Assembly: GCF_014077005.1 (NCBI RefSeq)
Contig: NZ_JACGVC010000043.1
Location: 1 to 64,000, forward strand
Direction of reading: 5' to 3'
DNA from: Colwellia sp. MB3u-45
GTDB taxonomy: Bacteria; Pseudomonadota; Gammaproteobacteria; Enterobacterales; Alteromonadaceae
DNA length: 64,000 nucleotides
This document shows positions 51,085 through 62,414 of this stretch, piece by piece; positions within the stretch are counted from its first letter, which is position 1; each line of letters starts with the position of its first letter. Both the position numbers and the translations under genes were made by a program. The notes below the pieces were generated by a model, which did no database searches, was not told the DNA's origin, and saw nothing but the letters and a program-made list of their open reading frames with translations.

Positions 51085-51528
51085 ATGCCTGAACAAAATG
51101 AAGAACTAAAAAGAGCTGGACTAAAAATTACTCTGCCACGCATTAAAATTTTGGCCATTTTACAAAACCCCAATAACCAGCACATCAGTGCTGAAGACGT
51201 ATACAAACTTTTGCTTGAGCATAATGAAGAAATTGGTTTGGCGACAGTATATCGCGTATTAAACCAATTTGATGATGCAGGTATTGTCACTCGTCATCAT
51301 TTTGAAGGTGGTAAATCAGTATTTGAACTAAGCCATAAGAAACACCATGATCACTTAGTGTGTTTGAATTGCGGTAAAGTGATTGAATTTGAAGACGATG
51401 TAATCGAACAGCGCCAAGAAGACGTGGCAAAATTTCATAAAGTAAAATTAACCAATCATAGTTTATACTTATATGGCGAATGTGAAGACGAAGTAGCGTG
51501 CGAGAAATATCGTAAAGCGCAGTCTTAA
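51085..51528 (+). CDS. fur: Ferric uptake regulator Fur
   Basis: Fur is the Fe(II)-dependent repressor of iron acquisition genes. The 147-residue protein has a winged-helix DNA-binding domain (about 1-83; LPRIKILAIL, GLATVYRVLNQFDDAGIV) and a dimerisation domain. The metal ligands are visible in KKHHDHLVCLNCGKVIEF and the C-terminal ECEDEVAC. Length matches E. coli Fur (148). It normally follows fldA, but here a block of unrelated genes lies between. It is probably monocistronic, with a terminator at 51551. Confidence 0.97.
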   Translation: MPEQNEELKRAGLKITLPRIKILAILQNPNNQHISAEDVYKLLLEHNEEIGLATVYRVLNQFDDAGIVTRHHFEGGKSVFELSHKKHHDHLVCLNCGKVIEFEDDVIEQRQEDVAKFHKVKLTNHSLYLYGECEDEVACEKYRKAQS

Positions 51529-51550
51529 AGCGCAGATAAAATAATAAATA

Positions 51551-51590
51551 AAAAGCCCTAGTTATTAAGTTAACTAGGGCTTTTTATTTT
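51551..51590 (+). terminator. Rho-independent terminator of fur
   Basis: A 14-bp perfect stem (51551-51564 with 51571-51584; core AGCCCTAGTTA) with a 6-nt loop is followed by Ts. It could also stop leftward transcription. Confidence 0.88.
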
Positions 51591-51720
51591 CAAGAAGAGC
51601 TGTCTCTATATAGAATATTAACTCAAGTTATCGCACACTTAGTGAGGATAACCTGTCTTTAAACAGCTACCACCTAGGCTAACATCAAGCTAACGCAGCG
51701 CAGCTAAACGCTAATCAAAC

Positions 51721-52842
51721 TCACCAACGCTCAATACTCCATTGCACCGCCATCAAGGCAATCAATAAAGAACCTAGCGGCATCACGCCTTTACTATAGA
51801 ATTTTCTCTTGCGCAGTAAAATTAATACCGGTAATAAAATAGCTAATATGGCTAACTGACCGATTTCCACACCAAGATTAAAGGCTAATATACTCAGCAA
51901 TTGTTGATCAGCGGGTAAACCTAACTCGCCTAATACACCAGCAAAGCCCATACCGTGTAACAAACCAAAAGCAAAGGTTAACCAAGCTAAACGTAGTACT
52001 AGAGGCCAAATATTATTCAGGGCAGCAAATAAAACTGATAAAGCAATGCCAAGTTCCACCCAACGACTACTTGGGCTTAACCAGCCTAAAGCGGTTGCGG
52101 TTAATGTCAGCGAATGGGCTAAGGTAAATGCGCTAATAATCCATACCGTATTGGTCAAAATAACGTTAACACTGGTAATAGCTTGCCACTGCTTGTTTTT
52201 ACGTTCTAGTACCGCCGGCAACAATAGCGCTAACAAGAACAGAATATGATCAATGCCGATCCAAATATGAATAATGCCTTGATAGACAAACTGCTTAAAG
52301 GTGGTCTGCCAACTTCCCTCACGTAAATCTATCGCTATTTGTCTGGTGTTATCATCCAAGACAAAGCTGTGCATATTGCTGCCATCACCAATGTTTAGCA
52401 CCATTTCATGGCTACTATCTAAAGCAAATATCGCACTATATTTTATATTTAATGCCCCACTGATAGCACATTGCCCTGAAAAGTCAGTAACAGCGAAGGC
52501 TTCGTTAGCATGATCCTGTAAACGCTCTACAAGGTCGAAACGTAGGTTACATGTAAGATTGTCACGGCTAAGTAATAAGTTTTCTGCTAAGTAACTGGCG
52601 ATCTCAGCTTGGCGACTTTTTACTTCTCCCCAAGTTAACTCACCATTAGCATTGAGATCTAAACCCACCGCCAGTTCCAAATCAGCTAAACTCAATTGCC
52701 ATTCGCCATTAATGCGACCCGTGTCGTCAATTTCGGCAATAATATAACTGGTGCTCAATTGATGAGCCGCCACGGTATTCGCTAATAATAACGACAGTCC
52801 GATTAAGGCTATTTTTAACCACTGGTGCATATTTAATCTCAC
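51721..52842 (-). CDS. HupE/UreJ-like membrane protein
   Basis: The 373-residue protein has a signal peptide (ending AVAA, about residue 26) and a periplasmic N-terminal domain (about 27-185) with an EF-hand-like DLNANGELTWGE. A C-terminal region follows with about six or seven membrane helices; its IWIGIDHILFLLALLLPAVL and HSLTLTATALG match the HupE/UreJ_2 family. Family members are linked to nickel or cobalt uptake, but no hydrogenase or urease genes are near. It is the last gene of the DUF4331 operon, 35 bp after the TPR gene. Confidence 0.83.
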   Translation of the reverse strand: MRLNMHQWLKIALIGLSLLLANTVAAHQLSTSYIIAEIDDTGRINGEWQLSLADLELAVGLDLNANGELTWGEVKSRQAEIASYLAENLLLSRDNLTCNLRFDLVERLQDHANEAFAVTDFSGQCAISGALNIKYSAIFALDSSHEMVLNIGDGSNMHSFVLDDNTRQIAIDLREGSWQTTFKQFVYQGIIHIWIGIDHILFLLALLLPAVLERKNKQWQAITSVNVILTNTVWIISAFTLAHSLTLTATALGWLSPSSRWVELGIALSVLFAALNNIWPLVLRLAWLTFAFGLLHGMGFAGVLGELGLPADQQLLSILAFNLGVEIGQLAILAILLPVLILLRKRKFYSKGVMPLGSLLIALMAVQWSIERW

Positions 52843-52877
52843 TACTGTTACTGCTTATTGGCTATAAGCTTTCTGGC

Positions 52878-53978
52878 TTATGCCTGCGTTGAACTTTTAA
52901 GGTCGGCTTGTGCTGCCATTGCGCGTTTAAGTATGCGTTTATCTGGGCCTAATTTAGCTTGTTGCCAGTTGATTTTTGCCCAGTGCAGCGCTTTAATTGC
53001 ATCAGGCGCAATATCTAAATAATAACGGGCAATGTCGGCGGCATGGGCTGTATCGTTACGCTGCAAGCGTATTTCAATGCGCTGGCTTAGTCGCTGTTGC
53101 CACACTTGCTTGTCTATATTACTGGCTGAGTTAACCGCTTGCTCTGCCAAGGCTAAACGCAGTAGTAATGCATCATCAAAACTGTCACTGGCCAGTACAA
53201 TAGGCCCTAACTTATCTAATACAATGTTACCTTGTTGTTGCTCCAAATGAATATCAGCCCATAACGCCAAATAACTCACGGGCGCTTGTGCTAGAGGAAA
53301 ATCTGACAAATGCTGAATTGCCTGCTCTAGTAACTGCTGACGTTGGGCAAGATCAGCCAAAATTTGTTTAAGCCACACATGCTGTTCACGTGGAATGTCG
53401 CCCGCCATATTAACCACGCGTTGTAATTGCTGATAACTTTGGGCAACTTGTCCTTGTTCAGCATTAACTTCAAGTACACAAGCTGTGCTTAGCAAAAGAC
53501 TGCCCTGCCCCAACACTTGTAAGCAGGCTCGTTTAGCTGCCACTAAATCACCTTGAACCATGTGAATATTGGCTTTCATTAGCCAAGCGGCGACATGATC
53601 AGGCTGAAGCTGCAGTATTTCCAAAAGCAGTTGTTGTGCCTGATCAAACTCATGATAGTGCTGCAATACCGTAGCTGAATAAAATTGTAATTCTAAATCA
53701 TTAGGAGTAGCTAAAAGTAAGGGCTTAAGTAATGCGCTGGCGCGGCCATAATAGCGACTGGCTAAACCTGGTTTGCTCGCGTCACTGATCAGTTGCGCGA
53801 TAAACACTTTTGGTTGTTCTGCGGGTTGAGGCACCGTCCAACTGGCAACGATACTTTGGTCTGATTGGGGTACATAACTTGCTGAGTATGCCGGGTGTGC
53901 GATAGTAATAAAAATCAATATTAATAAGGCGCGGGTGTAACCTTGTAGGTAAATGAGTATGGCCATATTATTATCCAT
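52878..53978 (-). CDS. Periplasmic TPR-repeat protein
   Basis: The 366-residue protein has an N-terminal signal peptide or membrane anchor (about 6-32). TPR-like helices follow (about 75-200), as in PNDLELQFYSATVLQHYHEF and PDHVAAWLMKANIHMVQGDL. It is likely a scaffold or assembly factor in the periplasm. It lies between the Ig-like lipoprotein and HupE-like genes in one operon, so it may serve the DUF4331 system. No catalytic motif is seen. Confidence 0.8.
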   Translation of the reverse strand: MDNNMAILIYLQGYTRALLILIFITIAHPAYSASYVPQSDQSIVASWTVPQPAEQPKVFIAQLISDASKPGLASRYYGRASALLKPLLLATPNDLELQFYSATVLQHYHEFDQAQQLLLEILQLQPDHVAAWLMKANIHMVQGDLVAAKRACLQVLGQGSLLLSTACVLEVNAEQGQVAQSYQQLQRVVNMAGDIPREQHVWLKQILADLAQRQQLLEQAIQHLSDFPLAQAPVSYLALWADIHLEQQQGNIVLDKLGPIVLASDSFDDALLLRLALAEQAVNSASNIDKQVWQQRLSQRIEIRLQRNDTAHAADIARYYLDIAPDAIKALHWAKINWQQAKLGPDKRILKRAMAAQADLKSSTQA

Positions 53979-54014
53979 AAAAGGGCGCCTTCCATGGCGC
54001 AGTCAAACTTTATT

Positions 54015-54557
54015 TTACTGTGGAAGCAAGTCGTCGTATGCCGCTGGATCCTCAACATCTTGAGTAAACGTACGACCATTTACGGCCAAAGGTTTATCAT
54101 TAGATTGCTGATTAAAAGCTGCACGACTCGTGCTGTTAAAAGATACTGTCAGCGTTTCAATAGTAATGTTAACTGTACCAGTAACCGCAGTATTTACGCC
54201 GTCAGTCACTGAAAAAGTAAAGCTGTCACTACCGGTTACTTCGTTATTTGGCTGGTAAGTAAATCCACCATTGCCGCTAACAGTAACCACACCTAACATT
54301 GCCTGTTGATCAAGGCTAAAGCTTAAAGCGTCGCCATCTGCATCAGCTGCACTTAACATATCGGTAATCGGCGTTTCTGTTTGAGTAATCAAATCCACCG
54401 TTATCGTAGTAGGTGCCGCATTGGCTGGCTCGCTTGGCGCTTCATAACCATCATTACAGCCTGCAAGTACCAGAGTGGTCGCTAAACTTAACGCTATCAC
54501 CTTAAGTTTAGGTGCTGCGATAATATGCGACGCTATGTTGCGTTTATTATATTGCAT
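54015..54557 (-). CDS. Small Ig-like (cadherin-type) lipoprotein
   Basis: The 180-residue protein has an unusually long basic N-terminal extension before its signal peptide, which ends in lipobox LVLAGC (Cys near residue 34). It carries one cadherin-like Ig domain (about 45-135; AADADGDALSFSLDQQ, NNEVTGSDSFTFSVTDG). The C-terminal 40 residues are not recognised. The MSP-like start could also be the internal Met near the hydrophobic core. It lies 11 bp after the DUF4331 gene, so it is coupled to it and may display or anchor the DUF4331 protein on the outer membrane. Confidence 0.8.
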   Translation of the reverse strand: MQYNKRNIASHIIAAPKLKVIALSLATTLVLAGCNDGYEAPSEPANAAPTTITVDLITQTETPITDMLSAADADGDALSFSLDQQAMLGVVTVSGNGGFTYQPNNEVTGSDSFTFSVTDGVNTAVTGTVNITIETLTVSFNSTSRAAFNQQSNDKPLAVNGRTFTQDVEDPAAYDDLLPQ

Positions 54558-54568
54558 TAAAGTGCTCC

Positions 54569-56161
54569 TTATTCAGAACCGGGTAACGGCATAGCTAAAT
54601 ATGGGAAGCTAGTACCTGTCATAGATGCATCGCTAGGTGCGCCATCAGTAAAGGCGGCATTTCCAACACTAGCATCTTCTGGTGCACAGAAACCTAAATT
54701 TGTCGGCACGCCATTCACTGGAATGTCATGACATAAAGCACCCATGACTACACGAAGTGCAATATCGACTACGTCATCACCTGGACGACGACCATTTGGA
54801 AAACCAGCTAAATCGTCTCCAGCTACGCCAAATGCAGATTGCTCGCTAGCTGGCTTGGCTGGAATAATTGTACTTAAGCGCAACATTTCAGAACCTGTAA
54901 CGATTGATTGCTGGTTAACACCTTCAACACCGGTCAAAAATGCCGCGATTAAATCAGTACGAGGAAAGTTTGTTGGTGCCAGTGTTTCTAAATCAGCGCC
55001 AAGTCTAGTATTTACCGCATCTTTAAACAGAATATTCAGTAACTCAGGTAACGTTGGGTGTGTAACATAATCGATAAACTGGCCATCATTACTGGGATGC
55101 GAAGTTGAAAATTTATCTTTATCTGCTAAGCCGATAACCAACTCGTTTACTAACGGTGAACCCAAACGTGAAACCTGAGTCATTGCACCACCGTTCACTT
55201 CAGTGCTATCAAAACTGGCATTAGGATTCAAAATTCTTGCTTGCGGCAAACTTGCGCTTGTCCAACTACCAATAACACCATTACCTTCGCCAATTAAACA
55301 AGATTTTGGTACTTCAATAGCAATACTGGTGACGTTTTTATCAGCTAAATCATCATTCATTGATGACTGAGTAATACCGCCGGGGAAACCTTCTCCATCG
55401 CCATTACCACGAGCACTGTCACCTTCAACAGGAACAAAGTTGACTAAATCAAATACCTTACCCAAGTTGACAGTAAATGCATCTTTACGCTGACCCACGA
55501 ACACTTTAGCCGGGGCATCACATCCAGGGATAGCTGCTGAGTAAACAAAGCTATCGGCGTAAGTTTTATATTCTGCGGCGCTGCCAAATGATTTAGTACC
55601 AATATAATCTAGTGGCTTGCGAAAATTTGTACCACCTGTGTCCATATTAGTAACATCGGCAGTAGTGCCTGTGCGCATCGGGCCTGAAGTCATTTTAACC
55701 GTGTACTTTTCAGAGAAATTAGCTGCCCCTTGATTATCCGCCGTGATCTTACCTACATTCTTAAGCGGTACACCAACAGATTTTTGTTCACCTTCTGGGC
55801 CTACCATCAAGGCAATACCAGCATTGTCATTGCCTAGCATCTGACTAAAATTAAAACTGAAAGTAATATCTTCAACGGCATCGCCATCGCTGTCGATATG
55901 GATATCATAAGTCGCAGCAGGATCCATTGCGAAATAGTTAGGTCCACCATAGGCATCTTGTAAAGGAATATAATTAGCAATTAGGGTGACGTATTCACCA
56001 CGCCCTGCTTCGTAACTATTGAATGAATAAAAATCTGTTGAATCTATTGTCGGCATGCGCGTAACATTAGGTGCTTCACGATGACTTGATGCTGTAACAG
56101 CTTGAGACAAAGTTGCACTCATAATTACCGAGGCAATAAGCGTTAATTTATATTTTTTCAT
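54569..56161 (-). CDS. DUF4331 family secreted protein
   Basis: The 530-residue protein has a signal peptide (ending near AVTASS) followed directly by the family's SSHREAPNVTRMPTIDSTD and DFYSFNSYEAGR. It then has a metal- or Ca-binding-looking DIHIDSDGDAVEDITFSF and a C-terminal part with VDIALRVVMGALC. DUF4331 has no established function. It is the first gene of a four-gene operon (Ig lipoprotein, TPR, HupE-like). A candidate ECF promoter, GCATCC-N16-CGTTT, lies 58 bp upstream and resembles the one before the nearby sigma-factor gene. Confidence 0.85.
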   Translation of the reverse strand: MKKYKLTLIASVIMSATLSQAVTASSHREAPNVTRMPTIDSTDFYSFNSYEAGRGEYVTLIANYIPLQDAYGGPNYFAMDPAATYDIHIDSDGDAVEDITFSFNFSQMLGNDNAGIALMVGPEGEQKSVGVPLKNVGKITADNQGAANFSEKYTVKMTSGPMRTGTTADVTNMDTGGTNFRKPLDYIGTKSFGSAAEYKTYADSFVYSAAIPGCDAPAKVFVGQRKDAFTVNLGKVFDLVNFVPVEGDSARGNGDGEGFPGGITQSSMNDDLADKNVTSIAIEVPKSCLIGEGNGVIGSWTSASLPQARILNPNASFDSTEVNGGAMTQVSRLGSPLVNELVIGLADKDKFSTSHPSNDGQFIDYVTHPTLPELLNILFKDAVNTRLGADLETLAPTNFPRTDLIAAFLTGVEGVNQQSIVTGSEMLRLSTIIPAKPASEQSAFGVAGDDLAGFPNGRRPGDDVVDIALRVVMGALCHDIPVNGVPTNLGFCAPEDASVGNAAFTDGAPSDASMTGTSFPYLAMPLPGSE

Positions 56162-56220
56162 GACGTTTCCTTTTTAATTTTATGATTCTTAGTAGTACTT
56201 TTTTTAGAGTTCATATAGTT

Positions 56221-56247
56221 AAACGGTTGAGATTAAGTATTGGATGC
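56221..56247 (-). promoter_or_regulatory. Candidate ECF promoter of the DUF4331 operon
   Basis: On the minus strand, GCATCC (56242-56247), 16 bp, then CGTTT (56221-56225). The sigma-factor gene has TCATCC-16 bp-CTTTG at the same kind of position. The shared form CATCC-N16-C(G/T)TT suggests a common sigma factor. It is loosely similar to the SigK (ECF19) type promoter as I recall it. Confidence 0.45.
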
Positions 56248-56249
56248 AA

Positions 56250-56691
56250 AGAAAGTAATCTTTTTTTAAATTAATTATTTTTCCAAGCGATTAATCAGCT
56301 TAAACACGCTAATAGGTCATATTTACTTACCCTATTAAAAACGTGTCATAGCTTATACACGGATCTTATGTACCGCTCTTATATACCGCAGCATCTCTAT
56401 GCCTTTATACTTTTGTGCTCCTTTATTGATTATGTTGTTCACCAACCTAGGCAACTTAATTAACTAACACAAGCTGATTTAAAGCTAGCCCACAATGACA
56501 CTATATGCATTTGTGCTTTTATTGACTAGGTTAGCTTTTAACTTATGCAGCTGACACAACTTGTACCAGCTGGTTAAACTTATGCTGTAATCCCGCTCAA
56601 TATTTTTTAATGATTGACGATTCATCCAACACACTAATAACAGACCGCCAATGGGTAAATTTATTTCAGGGTAATAACAAAAAAGTAAAAA
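56250..56691. other. Intergenic DNA between the DUF4331 operon and the anti-sigma gene
   Basis: I see no gene in these roughly 440 bp upstream of the DUF4331 promoter. The sequence is AT-rich with no strong repeat. The anti-sigma terminator lies at its right end. Confidence 0.4.
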
Positions 56692-56717
56692 AAAAGCGAA
56701 ACTTGCGTTTCGCTTTT
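56692..56717 (-). terminator. Rho-independent terminator of the sigma/anti-sigma operon
   Basis: An 11-bp stem (AAAAGCGAAAC / GTTTCGCTTTT) with a 4-nt loop is followed on the minus strand by a T run. It lies 59 bp after the anti-sigma stop. Confidence 0.82.
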
Positions 56718-56775
56718 CACCTTATTTAGAACAAATCATGCGCTAGGTGTAAACTCATTAGCGCTTATTAATAAA

Positions 56776-57474
56776 CTAAAGCGTAACCAATTTAGAGGTA
56801 TATAGCACGGTAGTAGGTGAACCATTAGGCGAGCCACCTAGCGGCTCTAAACTCACCGCCAAAGCAGCAATTTCAATTTGATCAAACAACTGAGGTTTAT
56901 TTAAGGTCAATTTACCGGTTTTAGGTAATAAGCCTAAAGAGATAGGTGCTCTGCCATCTGCTGGTACTATCCATAATTGATAATCCGCATTGGCCTGTGC
57001 TACTAAGGTCTTAGTCGCTTGAATATCAATAGTGTCTGTGCCGATTTCTAGTGCCCATAGCAGCTCAGTTTGTTCATTATTTACTAAAGCGAGTTGCTGA
57101 GCATCAGGTGCTGATATGGGTTCAACATTGACTAATAATACCGCTAGCACCAAGGCAGCCGCTGACGCTAATCCCGCGATGCTTTGCCAGATTTTTGGCT
57201 TGGCCTTGGTGAACGACACAATATTATTTTTTTCTGGTTCAGAAACAAACCCTAACTGCTGCTCGATACGCAGCCAAACTGACACGTCAGGTGTCACGGG
57301 TGGAATTTTTTCTCCTAAGCCATTTAGCTGCTGTTCCCAAGTGTGGGTTGCCTCGCTGATCGGTGGATATTGCATCATTAATTTTTGAAAGCGCTGACGA
57401 GCAGGCCCACGTAAGGTACCTAATACGTATTCTGCAGCTAGGGCATTTTTGAGGTTTTCAGATAAATAATTCAT
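56776..57474 (-). CDS. Anti-sigma factor (RskA-like)
   Basis: From ATG 57474 the protein has 232 residues. The N-terminal cytoplasmic part (about 1-90) has the anti-sigma-like AAEYVLGTLRGPARQRF, one membrane helix follows (about 98-118; AGLASAAALVLAVLLV), and the periplasmic C-terminal domain resembles RskA (LWIVPADGRAPISLGLLP). Its ATGA start overlaps the sigma-factor stop, so the pair is translationally coupled. A longer start at 57519 would lie inside the sigma gene and is rejected. It probably holds the ECF sigma factor at the membrane until proteolysis releases it. Confidence 0.88.
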   Translation of the reverse strand: MNYLSENLKNALAAEYVLGTLRGPARQRFQKLMMQYPPISEATHTWEQQLNGLGEKIPPVTPDVSVWLRIEQQLGFVSEPEKNNIVSFTKAKPKIWQSIAGLASAAALVLAVLLVNVEPISAPDAQQLALVNNEQTELLWALEIGTDTIDIQATKTLVAQANADYQLWIVPADGRAPISLGLLPKTGKLTLNKPQLFDQIEIAALAVSLEPLGGSPNGSPTTVLYTSKLVTL

Positions 57475-58001
57475 GAGGTTAAGCAACTTTGTAAACTTGT
57501 AAGACCACGTCTTATCCAACTTTTAACAGTGCCCAAAGGATTATTGAGGTGTTTAACCACCTCCTGATGGGAGCAGCCATTGAAGTAGGCCAAATAAATA
57601 GCCTGACGTTGTTGCAGATCAAGCTTTTGCAAGCATTTGTCTAGTAACAGTTCTTCTATGTCATGGCTTTTCTCGGGCGTATCTAGGTCAACGCTGTCTG
57701 TCTCAAGTAATTCATCTTCTTTTCTAATTTTGTTATAGCGCAAAATATCTAGCGCCCGATAACGCACTATGCTGATCATCCAAGTCAACACTGTGCCCTT
57801 GCCCACTCGGTATTCTGATGCGTTATGCCAAATACGCACATAAGCCTCTTGCAAAGCTTCTTCAGCTAATTCTTTACGCGCTAACATTTTCAAGCTAACC
57901 GCATAAAGCTGTTTACTGGTGGTTTGGTAAAGCGCTGAAAACGCCTTTTTATCGCCTTGAGCTATAGCGCCAAGTAAGGCTAGGTGCTGTTCATGTTCCA
58001 T
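57471..58001 (-). CDS. ECF sigma factor (SigK/ECF19-like)
   Basis: The 176-residue RNA polymerase sigma factor has region 2 (about 20-90; ALYQTTSKQLYAVSLKML, EALQEAYVRIWHNASEYR) and region 4 (about 120-175; LDLQQRQAIYLAYFNGCSHQ, GTVKSWIRRGLTSL). Its coupling with an RskA-like anti-sigma suggests the SigK branch. A candidate autoregulatory promoter, TCATCC-N16-CTTTG, lies about 40 bp upstream, and a similar motif precedes the DUF4331 gene, which makes that operon its likely target. The inducing signal is unknown. Confidence 0.9.
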   Translation of the reverse strand: MEHEQHLALLGAIAQGDKKAFSALYQTTSKQLYAVSLKMLARKELAEEALQEAYVRIWHNASEYRVGKGTVLTWMISIVRYRALDILRYNKIRKEDELLETDSVDLDTPEKSHDIEELLLDKCLQKLDLQQRQAIYLAYFNGCSHQEVVKHLNNPLGTVKSWIRRGLTSLQSCLTS

Positions 58002-58040
58002 TATTTAGTGCTCTTTTTCTGAAGGAGTAATTTACTGACG

Positions 58041-58069
58041 AGCAAAGATACTATACTAATTAAGGATGA
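58041..58069 (-). promoter_or_regulatory. Candidate ECF autoregulatory promoter
   Basis: On the minus strand, TCATCC (58064-58069), 16 bp and CTTTGCT (58041-58047). It shares CATCC-N16-C(G/T)TT with the site before the DUF4331 gene. Confidence 0.42.
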
Positions 58070-58331
58070 TTTACCTACAACTCCATTTAGCTTCAAGCGA
58101 TAAATTCCTTTTAAAACAGGCTAAAAACGCCCGATTGGAAAATAAATATTGCGATTAAATAGGGCTATTATTTGCCTAAATTTATGACACAACTGTTCAG
58201 TATTCAGCAGCAATATATTGCACAGAGTAACTCTTGATATTTGATTGAACATCAGTAAACAGCTTTAACAGAGCGCTTGGTGGGTAAGTGCTAGGTAGGT
58301 AGGTTCATCATAATAAATAGCTTATTAAATC
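58070..58331. other. Intergenic DNA between the sigma gene and a small membrane protein gene
   Basis: No gene is seen in this AT-rich stretch of about 260 bp and no terminator stands out. Confidence 0.35.
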
Positions 58332-58676
58332 TCACACACTCAAGAGTTTTATCGTTGCATAGAGCAGTGCTAAGCTGATAAAAATGAACACGATTGTGGC
58401 CAATTTAAATATAATTTTTGCTAGCCAATGTTTCATCCGGGCAAACCAACCTTTGGGCATATCGTCAATATTTGGCGTATTAACTAATAACCCTAATATC
58501 GCACTTAATAACAAGCTCCATGTGGCTAATAACAAACTCGGTACACCATAGCTATTTTGCTCAGCAATCGAGCCATTAAGAAATAAAATCACAATAAATA
58601 CCAGACAGGCAACAAAGGCAAAATTTAATAACGGCTTGATAATAAACAAACGCTGCGCCAACTTTTTAACTGTCAT
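58332..58676 (-). CDS. Small membrane protein, function unknown
   Basis: The 114-residue protein has three hydrophobic helices (about 16-35, 47-66 and 86-110). A basic loop GWFARMKHWLAK separates the second and third. No family is recognised. It lies upstream of, and in line with, the sigma gene on the minus strand, with 330 bp between them, so it is not clearly in the same unit. No CATCC-type promoter was found before it. Confidence 0.6.
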   Translation of the reverse strand: MTVKKLAQRLFIIKPLLNFAFVACLVFIVILFLNGSIAEQNSYGVPSLLLATWSLLLSAILGLLVNTPNIDDMPKGWFARMKHWLAKIIFKLATIVFIFISLALLYATIKLLSV

Positions 58677-60140: not shown

Positions 60141-62414
60141 ATGAAGCATTGCAACCTAAGGCTAAGTGTTTTGGCCATCACCATTTCAGCCGCACTGACC
60201 AGTCAAAGTATCTTGGCCGCAGCAGCGAATGAACAGCTAAACAATGATCCAACATTGGAGCGGATTGAAGTCACCGCTCGAAAATCATTGGAAAGTTTAC
60301 AATCTGTACCTGTCGCAATCACTTCTATTGGCGCTGAACAATTAGCACAAAATGGCATTAGTGTGATGACAGAAGTTCAACAGTTCTCACCGAATACGAC
60401 TTTACAGGCCAGTCGTGGTACTAACTCAACCTTAACGGCTTTTATTCGTGGTGTTGGTCAAGATGATCCACTTTGGGGCTATGAACCTGGTGTTGGCATT
60501 TATGTTGATGATGTTTATATTGCCCGTCCACAAGGAGCCGTATTAGATATTCTTGATGTTGAACGTATTGAAGTATTACGCGGTCCTCAAGGTAGTTTAT
60601 ATGGTAAAAACACGATTGGTGGTGCGATTAAATATGTCACTAAAAAAATGTCTGGTGATGTAGAACTTGATCTTAAAGGAACCTTTGGTACTTACGATCG
60701 TAAAGATTATAAAGTTGCGGGTAAAGTTCCAGTGATAGCTGATAAATTATATCTTGGCTTTGCTTTGGCTGATCTAAAAAGAGGTGGTTATGGGGAGTTT
60801 TTACAATCTTCCTTACCGGGTCAAAACTTAGAGAACTACAATAAAGATATTTTTGCTGGTCGACTTACCATTGAGTTCGAACCGACAGAAGATTTATTCT
60901 TACGTTTTAATTATGATAAAACCATCGACGACTCAAATGCTAAAGGTGGCTATCGTTTATTGCCAAGCATAGTAACTAATGCGCCAGTACCCAATAGTGT
61001 TTATGATTCTTACACCAGTATGCCTACGTGGAATAGTGTTGAGTCAGAAGGCTTTAGCCTAACGGCTGAATATATGATCAATGATACTTGGTCAGTTAAA
61101 TCAATCACCTCAAGCCGAGATAATTATTCAAAAACAAATATTGATTTTGATAATACCGCCGAACGTATTTTTGATGTACCTGCCATTTATGATGATGAAC
61201 AATTTACGCAAGAATTTCAACTAAACTATAACTCAGATAATTTAAACTTTGTCTCTGGTCTGTACTACTTTGATGGTGAATCATGTGGCCACTTCGACGC
61301 TATTTTAGAGAATTTCGGCAAGTCTTTGGCTTTACCTGGGCTAACTCGAGAAGTAACGGGTTGTAATAACAGTGAAAGCTATGCTGTTTATGCTCAAGGT
61401 TCCTTCAATATTACCGATAAATTCTCCATGACCTTAGGTGCGCGTTATACCAAAGAAGAAAAAATAGCTAAGGTTAATAATGGTGTGGTATTTGAAACAG
61501 TTTATCCAGAAAGTGGCTGGGTAAACGGTTATGAACGTGGTGATGTTCAATTCCCTGAAGTGCTTAATGATAAAGAAGATTGGTCGCGCTTTACCCCGCG
61601 TGTAGGCGCAGAGTATCAATACTCAGACGACATGATGTTTTTTGCCAGTTATTCACAAGGCTTCAAATCAGGTACTTTTAATCCAAGAGCCAGTGGTCCA
61701 GAGCCAGCGGTAGATCCAGAAGTGGTAGATTCATTTGAAGTTGGCCTAAAAAGTGAGTGGAATAATAATTTGAGGGTTAATGCGACAGCCTTCTATCTTG
61801 ATCATAAAGACAGACAATTTGTTACGGTATTACCCACAGCAGACAACAGTGCATTAAGTCAACGTTTAGGCAATATAGGCACCTCGACGGCATCAGGTTT
61901 AGAATTAGAAATTGAATATGCCGTAGCAGATAACTTAAATGTTTTTGCCAGTTTAGGCTTGATTGACTCATCTTTTGACGAAGTAACATCATTTGACAAT
62001 GACGGTAACCAGATAGATATTAGCGATAGCTTCACTATTACGAATACGCCTGAAACTACCGCTAACCTTGGTTTTACTTATAACATCGACACATCGGTTG
62101 GTAGTTTTGTTGTTAATAGTAACTACTATTACCGTAGTGAGTATGACTTAAACGTTACCGAAAACTTATTAACTCAAGACGGCTATGGTCTACTTAACTT
62201 TGGTGTTAACTGGTATAGCAACAACGGAGATTGGACTGCAGCACTGCATTGGAAAAATATTACCGACAAAGAGTACTTAGTCGGTAACTACGCCTTCTTA
62301 GGCGCACAAAATAATGATGGCAGTTATCAACCTGGTTTAGGTGGAGATACGACACTGATTGGTTATTACGGGGATCCTGAAACCCTTGCATTGACCATAG
62401 GTTATAGTTTCTAA
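60141..62414 (+). CDS. TonB-dependent outer-membrane receptor
   Basis: The 757-residue protein has a signal peptide (cut near SILAAA), a TonB box region ERIEVTARKSLESLQ, and a plug domain with VPVAITSIGAEQL, FIRGVGQDD and VEVLRGPQGSLYGKNTIGG (read as RIEVLRGPQGSLYGKN). The barrel ends LTIGYSF. It belongs to the large TonB receptor group of marine gammaproteobacteria; neighbours do not identify the substrate. A response regulator gene follows after 190 bp, which may or may not control it. Confidence 0.9.
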   Translation: MKHCNLRLSVLAITISAALTSQSILAAAANEQLNNDPTLERIEVTARKSLESLQSVPVAITSIGAEQLAQNGISVMTEVQQFSPNTTLQASRGTNSTLTAFIRGVGQDDPLWGYEPGVGIYVDDVYIARPQGAVLDILDVERIEVLRGPQGSLYGKNTIGGAIKYVTKKMSGDVELDLKGTFGTYDRKDYKVAGKVPVIADKLYLGFALADLKRGGYGEFLQSSLPGQNLENYNKDIFAGRLTIEFEPTEDLFLRFNYDKTIDDSNAKGGYRLLPSIVTNAPVPNSVYDSYTSMPTWNSVESEGFSLTAEYMINDTWSVKSITSSRDNYSKTNIDFDNTAERIFDVPAIYDDEQFTQEFQLNYNSDNLNFVSGLYYFDGESCGHFDAILENFGKSLALPGLTREVTGCNNSESYAVYAQGSFNITDKFSMTLGARYTKEEKIAKVNNGVVFETVYPESGWVNGYERGDVQFPEVLNDKEDWSRFTPRVGAEYQYSDDMMFFASYSQGFKSGTFNPRASGPEPAVDPEVVDSFEVGLKSEWNNNLRVNATAFYLDHKDRQFVTVLPTADNSALSQRLGNIGTSTASGLELEIEYAVADNLNVFASLGLIDSSFDEVTSFDNDGNQIDISDSFTITNTPETTANLGFTYNIDTSVGSFVVNSNYYYRSEYDLNVTENLLTQDGYGLLNFGVNWYSNNGDWTAALHWKNITDKEYLVGNYAFLGAQNNDGSYQPGLGGDTTLIGYYGDPETLALTIGYSF

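Follow-up and report, generated by a model that had tools for sequence, protein, structure and literature searches.

The closest described counterparts of the regulatory genes presented here are SigK-RskA of Mycobacterium tuberculosis and the mpt83-sigK-rskA cassettes of Yersinia (ECF18/ECF19). According to the accessible part of PMC7509140, mpt83-sigK-rskA cassettes carry a SigK site that is conserved even in Gram-negative bacteria, and the SigK-type cysteine pair is retained in 94% of the ECF18 and 56% of the ECF19 sigma factors. Outside Mycobacterium, few outputs of regulators resembling SigK are known. On the transport side, the closest counterparts are the Ang-1-HupE/UreJ-2 permeases. The accessible part of PMC12537917 describes HupE/UreJ proteins as nickel permeases, Ang-1 as a domain that binds copper (Kd 73.6 nM) and nickel (220 nM) via its mature N-terminal histidine, and DUF4198 proteins as secreted, nickel-binding proteins with an N-terminal His; Ang-1-HupE is proposed there to serve metal capture and uptake. 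The DUF4331 family (PF14224), the third component of the locus, is without assigned function: Pfam gives none, and no paper containing the term DUF4331 was found in a literature search.

The window (the whole stretch of 64,000 nucleotides that was analyzed) is part of the 4.17-Mb genome of Colwellia sp. MB3u-45. Six of its genes, all on the minus strand, encode, in this order, an ECF sigma factor, an anti-sigma factor and, after a gap of 614 bp, a DUF4331 protein, an Ig-like lipoprotein, a TPR protein and a HupE/UreJ_2 protein (Table 1). The gene coordinates bear out the predicted ATGA overlap of the sigma gene with that of the RskA-like anti-sigma factor, and the common strand and the domain matches agree with the operon of DUF4331, Ig-like lipoprotein, TPR and HupE/UreJ-like genes that had been proposed. 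The true start of the HupE gene is probably the ATG at position 52830. A consensus scan for intrinsic terminators (10 such sites in the region vs. 6.0 expected) placed one hairpin in the gap that separates the anti-sigma gene from DUF4331 and another past the HupE gene, which is consistent with the DUF4331 transcript being separate. The sigma-70 promoter scan was uninformative (15 found vs. 17.0 in shuffled sequences), and there was no Rfam match in positions 51400-58400. Directly upstream of the sigma gene (58332-58676, minus strand) lies a 114-aa membrane-protein-like gene with a weak Pfam hint, which is present in 9/9 clusters of the genus and missing from all clusters from outside it that were compared.

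Table 1. Features of the sigma factor locus, with positions in the window.
Feature	Position	Strand	Basis or remark
ECF sigma gene, SigK-like, 176 aa	57471..58001	-	Sigma70_r2 and r4_2; relative of 4nqw; C123/C173
RskA-like anti-sigma gene, 232 aa	56776..57474	-	PF10099 RskA_C, E 2.1e-17; ATGA overlap with sigma gene
GCATCC-N16-CGTT, predicted promoter for the sigma factor before the DUF4331 operon	56222..56247	-	PWM and conservation
DUF4331 gene, 530 aa, predicted secreted	54569..56161	-	PF14224, E 6.9e-146; predicted mature N-terminus SSHREAP
Ig/cadherin-like lipoprotein gene, 180 aa	54015..54557	-	PF17963 Big_9, E 5e-14; lipobox LVLAGC in translation
TPR protein gene, 366 aa	52878..53978	-	PF14559, E 2e-5
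HupE/UreJ_2 permease gene, N-terminal Ang-1-like domain	51721..52842	-	PF13795, E 1.6e-44
Intrinsic-terminator-like hairpin, anti-sigma/DUF4331 intergenic	56691..56718	-	Consensus scan only
Intrinsic-terminator-like hairpin 3' of HupE gene	51546..51589	-	Consensus scan
Genus-conserved element upstream of sigma gene, TAGGTAAAT-N9-TTAGTATAGTATC here	58047..58077	-	Congener comparison; overlaps 58043-58069

The best relative of the sigma factor among solved structures is SigK (4nqw, E 1.8e-23), with regions 2 and 4 present; in the alignment, its C123 and C173 coincide with the cysteine pair of SigK (C133 and C183), and both are invariant in 22/22 orthologues. Judged by sequence, the sigma/anti-sigma pair is SigK/RskA-like, cysteine pair included. 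As in the SigK-RskA systems, the overlapping pair contains an anti-sigma factor with an RskA_C domain, and the sigma site precedes the gene of an exported protein. The GCATCC box of this site resembles the SigK -35 element, which we take to be CCATCC; no paper with the latter string was found in the literature search. Unlike in the SigK-RskA systems, the output here is DUF4331-Ig-TPR-HupE instead of MPT83/MPT70, and the Colwellia sigma gene is without a site of its own.

The GCATCC-N16-CGTTT string that had been predicted before the DUF4331 gene is present with its 16-bp spacer and is clearly above chance. When the window was scored with a position weight matrix (PWM) built from relatives, GCATCC-N16-CGTT was the best of 127,934 positions, with a score of 28.8 vs. 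6.2 for the runner-up. Its conservation, together with synteny, was followed in named genomes, of which the best 80 of 563 relatives were kept (these loci are related to one another and overlap in part with the order and genus genome sets); among these 80, the nearest relatives are Colwellia strains, with DUF4331 identities of 96 and 95%. Exact GCATCY-N16-CGTW precedes DUF4331 in 67 of the 80 loci and starts at a median of -63 relative to the start codon (-57 to -66 in 58/67). Within the 71 loci that bear the sigma gene, 62 match with a spacer of N16 and 2 with N17, and none with N13, N14, N15, N18, N19 or the reversed pattern; the near-misses in the remaining nine are GAATCC (five loci), an N17 spacer (two) and CGGAG (two). 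Unguided dyad counting recovered the same two boxes, since CATC-N17-CGTT ranked first in both upstream sets (49/65 and 20/64; shuffle maxima 10 and 8). In eight congeners, whose sigma proteins are 84 to 96% identical, the site is exact in six and reads GAATCC in two. Only 2 of the 497 other ORFs of at least 150 aa in the 80 loci match the pattern within 250 bp upstream.

Presence of the site was found to follow presence of the sigma gene. The latter is in the same locus as DUF4331 in 71 of the 80 loci, and 62 of these 71 have the exact DUF4331 site. The site is also present in five of the nine loci without the sigma gene, and in each of these five genomes the orthologue is encoded at another place: in L178, L207, L213 and L220 it was detected with E values of 3.2e-80 to 4.8e-72, and L165 is a contig of genome G292, whose sigma gene sits on another contig. 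All 67 genomes with an exact site encode the orthologous sigma factor, 62 of them within the locus and 5 outside it. The remaining four sigma-less loci have neither a site nor a sigma orthologue (best E 2.4e-26 to 3.5e-21), and no site was found in four further sigma-less genomes (G107, G135, G148 and G161), which are congeneric with three of these four. The site is therefore present in 0/8 sigma-less genomes (seven of Kangiella and one of Alteromonas), i.e., about two independent losses, and at the expected place sigma-less Alteromonas L201 has a decayed GAATCA-N16-CGTA. Fisher's exact test, in which kinship is ignored, gave p 4.5e-4 for the 80 loci and 5.6e-7 with the four genomes added.

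The same association was observed at other taxonomic levels and in rearranged loci. Of 17 genomes of the genus, 9 have DUF4331, and exactly these 9 also have the sigma orthologue; in the order, DUF4331 is present in 26/295 genomes. The exact DUF4331 site was found in 17/17 order clusters in which the sigma gene adjoins DUF4331 (one of them split over two contigs of G292). The six-gene cassette is complete in 16 of these 17, L044 being without the TPR and HupE genes; the flanking genes vary between genera, and the cassette thus moves as a unit. Outside the order the agreement is weaker: only 5/9 full-length DUF4331 genes have the exact site, although all 9 genomes gave a sigma match with an E value of 1e-25 or lower, near DUF4331 in seven. 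Rearranged loci, in which the sigma gene is divergent (L164, L181 and L184) or placed after the HupE gene (L227), keep the DUF4331 site. The conservation of the site, its joint occurrence with the sigma gene and the rearranged loci all agree, and the DUF4331 operon is very probably an output of this sigma factor, as had been predicted.

The second half of that prediction, a motif shared with the sigma gene's own promoter, fared differently. Both strings are present with the identical 16-bp spacer; the copy before the sigma gene, TCATCC-N16-CTTTG (58043-58069), is no better than chance here, as it ranks 973 of 127,934 in the PWM scan and a site of this type was found in 0/8 congeners. A different element is conserved at this place in the genus, of which the parts TAGGTAAAT and TTAGTATANTATC were each found in 8/9 congeneric loci (window counted). 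Autoregulation of the sigma gene in this strain was accordingly rejected, and in Colwellia it is apparently absent. In many other genera it is likely: an exact site lies before the sigma gene in 49 of the 71 sigma-bearing loci (among the best 80 of 563 relatives) and in 12 of the 16 order clusters other than that of the window.

Further targets were sought with the same patterns. Across the whole Colwellia genome, loose GCATCY-N16-CGTW gave 15 matches vs. 14 for the reversed pattern, i.e., no excess, and the only strict site is that before DUF4331; a large regulon in this genome, considered as a candidate, is thus unsupported. Among 36 genomes, strict matches numbered 40 in the 25 with the system and 12 in the 11 that lack it, while the reversed control gave 2 in each group; given these 12, isolated distant matches carry little weight. 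Two kinds of additional putative target recurred, an NHL-repeat lipoprotein and TonB receptors. The lipoprotein, which has a collagen-like linker, is encoded in 4/31 genomes, all of them sigma-bearing, with an exact site in three and a near-miss in one; the Colwellia genome has no homologue at E 1e-15.

TonB receptors import their substrates, and members of one subfamily are encoded within the cluster or next to it in 25/80 loci (one being an 86-aa fragment), a second receptor type occurring, with the site, in two further loci; grouping by single linkage gave 27 loci, including the two of the other type and the fragment. Of the cassette receptors, 17 directly follow HupE and have no site of their own, four precede the sigma gene and carry the site (the sigma gene there being without one), and one has a near-miss; no site was found at two receptors of Kangiella or at the fragment. 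In 9/36 genomes the receptor is encoded separately, with a site in two of the six that bear the sigma gene and in none of the three that do not. The Colwellia genome has no homologue of the cassette-type receptor at E 1e-60, and so the TonB-dependent receptor found in the window about 2 kb upstream of the sigma gene, on the opposite strand (60141-62414, plus), appears to differ in type from the cassette-linked subfamily.

Both site-bearing ORFs among the 497 mentioned above are DUF4198 genes (L164 and L184). In these two Thalassotalea loci, the DUF4198 gene with its own site adjoins the divergent sigma gene, and there is also a second-type TonB receptor with a site, as well as a further, DUF4198-looking protein with the sequence AHDFWLSP. 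A DUF4198 gene adjoins DUF4331 in L279 and L280. DUF4198 thus adjoins DUF4331 or carries the site in relatives; none was seen in the flanks of the cluster in the window.

The function of the operon was approached through its HupE and DUF4331 proteins. In the AF2 model of the former (pLDDT 89.1), the N-terminal domain matches copper-bound Ang-1 (9gce) with Z 12.2 and rmsd 2.9 over 130 aligned residues at 14% identity, followed by the zinc-binding proteins ZrgA of Vibrio cholerae (Z 10.7) and PA4063 of Pseudomonas aeruginosa (Z 9.8), which have the same fold; the first unrelated match is at 7.8. The profile search with HupE returned no sequence relative among solved structures at E 1. A His directly follows the predicted signal peptide in 35/35 HupE homologues (in the alignment, with cleavage judged by eye). 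Like Ang-1-HupE/UreJ-2 (PMC12537917; 9gce), the protein combines a PF13795 membrane domain, the Ang-1 fold and a conserved predicted N-terminal His, and it is predicted from the model to be a permease of this type; the identity to 9gce is low, and the accessible part of PMC12537917 does not mention a link with DUF4331 and an ECF pair. Unlike in ZrgA and PA4063, the domain is here fused to the HupE membrane domain, and the metal may differ.

In DUF4331, which matches its family over the full length, the stretch A24-S25-S26-H27-R28-E29-A30-P31 is invariant in 54/54 sequences, including the Ala before the predicted cut (cleavage judged by eye), and SSHREAP was also found in 9/9 full-length DUF4331 proteins from other orders or classes (one of which, L276, comes from the genome of L191). 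A free X-X-His N-terminus (ATCUN) is a known copper/nickel site, and Ser-Ser-His-Arg-Glu-Ala-Pro is a possible copper/nickel-binding N-terminus. Three partial DUF4331 relatives (L281, L282 and L283) have S-D-H (two) or S-S-H-H (one) after a likely signal peptide. Comparison of the DUF4331 fold with the PDB was dropped, as the model is poor (pLDDT 55.8) and retrieved beta sandwiches of the antibody type, none with Z above 7.1; a search for sequence relatives among solved structures gave only chance-level matches (E 0.29 and above).

Promoter conservation, sigma-site co-occurrence, cassette synteny, the Ang-1 fold and the conserved predicted N-termini are thus established by comparison. We consider it likely, taking the reading as a whole, that a SigK/RskA-type sigma factor drives DUF4331-Ig-TPR-HupE via one promoter and that the operon captures a transition metal. 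Transition-metal capture as the role of the operon is, taken separately, a reading that we favor with some reserve; the metal would most likely be copper or nickel. Several results count against parts of the whole reading: the Colwellia genome has a single strict site and no cassette-type receptor at E 1e-60, the separately encoded receptor is without a site in four of six sigma-bearing genomes, and the exact site is found in only 5/9 full-length DUF4331 genes from outside the order. The original prediction of a cell-envelope module, to which no role was given, holds as regards the envelope, and the HupE fold and the N-termini narrow the role to this proposed capture. Under the proposed mechanism, (i) a signal would release the sigma factor from RskA, as in SigK; (ii) RNA polymerase would initiate about 50 bp upstream of DUF4331; (iii) the secreted DUF4331 protein would bind metal at its Ser-Ser-His N-terminus; (iv) the Ig-like lipoprotein and the TPR protein would act as envelope partners; and (v) the Ang-1 domain would pass the metal on to the membrane channel of HupE, this being the presumed direction of transport. 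Passage through the outer membrane would be the task of a TonB receptor and DUF4198 proteins, which in some relatives are part of the same regulon. A more specific version, evenly poised in our judgment, is that DUF4331 is a secreted copper/nickel carrier with SSHREAP as its X-X-His site and that it forms, with Ang-1-HupE and, in many relatives, a dedicated TonB receptor, an undescribed uptake system under SigK-type control. In this version, metal state (or a metal-linked redox state) would be the signal of one SigK/RskA branch. If metal capture is the role, the operon would represent a possible route for the acquisition of scarce transition metals by Gammaproteobacteria of the sea.

It is unlikely that the sigma factor controls an operon that sequesters or exports metal, i.e., one that confers tolerance without uptake. 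Detoxification could make use of the same binding proteins, and in Gilvimarinus (L276, 10753-12977) CusB/HlyD-like and OEP efflux genes lie shortly downstream of hupE; however, 25 to 27 of 80 loci link the operon with importing receptors of the TonB type, and the descriptions of HupE/UreJ proteins as nickel permeases and of Ang-1-HupE as serving metal capture and uptake (PMC12537917, accessible part) speak for inward transport. We regard as quite improbable a surface or adhesion module resembling the SigK-controlled MPT70/MPT83, in which the metal sites would be structural. Such a module would accord with the mpt83-sigK-rskA organization of SigK systems (PMC7509140, accessible part), with the export of DUF4331 and the Ig lipoprotein, and with the site before the NHL-repeat lipoprotein gene in three of the four genomes holding it, but HupE, as a permease of the membrane, carries a domain of a metal-binding type, and the associations with TonB receptors and DUF4198 suggest metal. 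That a different regulator uses the motif as its operator, the sigma gene being a mere neighbor, is very hard to sustain, since two boxes with a fixed 16-bp spacing about 60 bp from the start codon are typical of an ECF promoter, and the site tracks the sigma gene even when this is located elsewhere and is missing without it.

Other arrangements upstream of DUF4331 genes were also observed. In L056 (G272), a second DUF4331 paralogue is preceded by GCATCT-N16-CGTT, and a different ECF sigma gene lies nearby on the opposite strand. The sigma-less DUF4331 operons of Kangiella (L055 and L057-L061) have a common upstream GGGGTAT ... ATACCCC pair and, convergent at the operon end, an NsrR-like Rrf2 gene; upstream in L060 there are NO-related genes, encoding a NorB-type reductase and a hemerythrin/ScdA_N protein. 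These Kangiella operons may have been taken over by another regulator.
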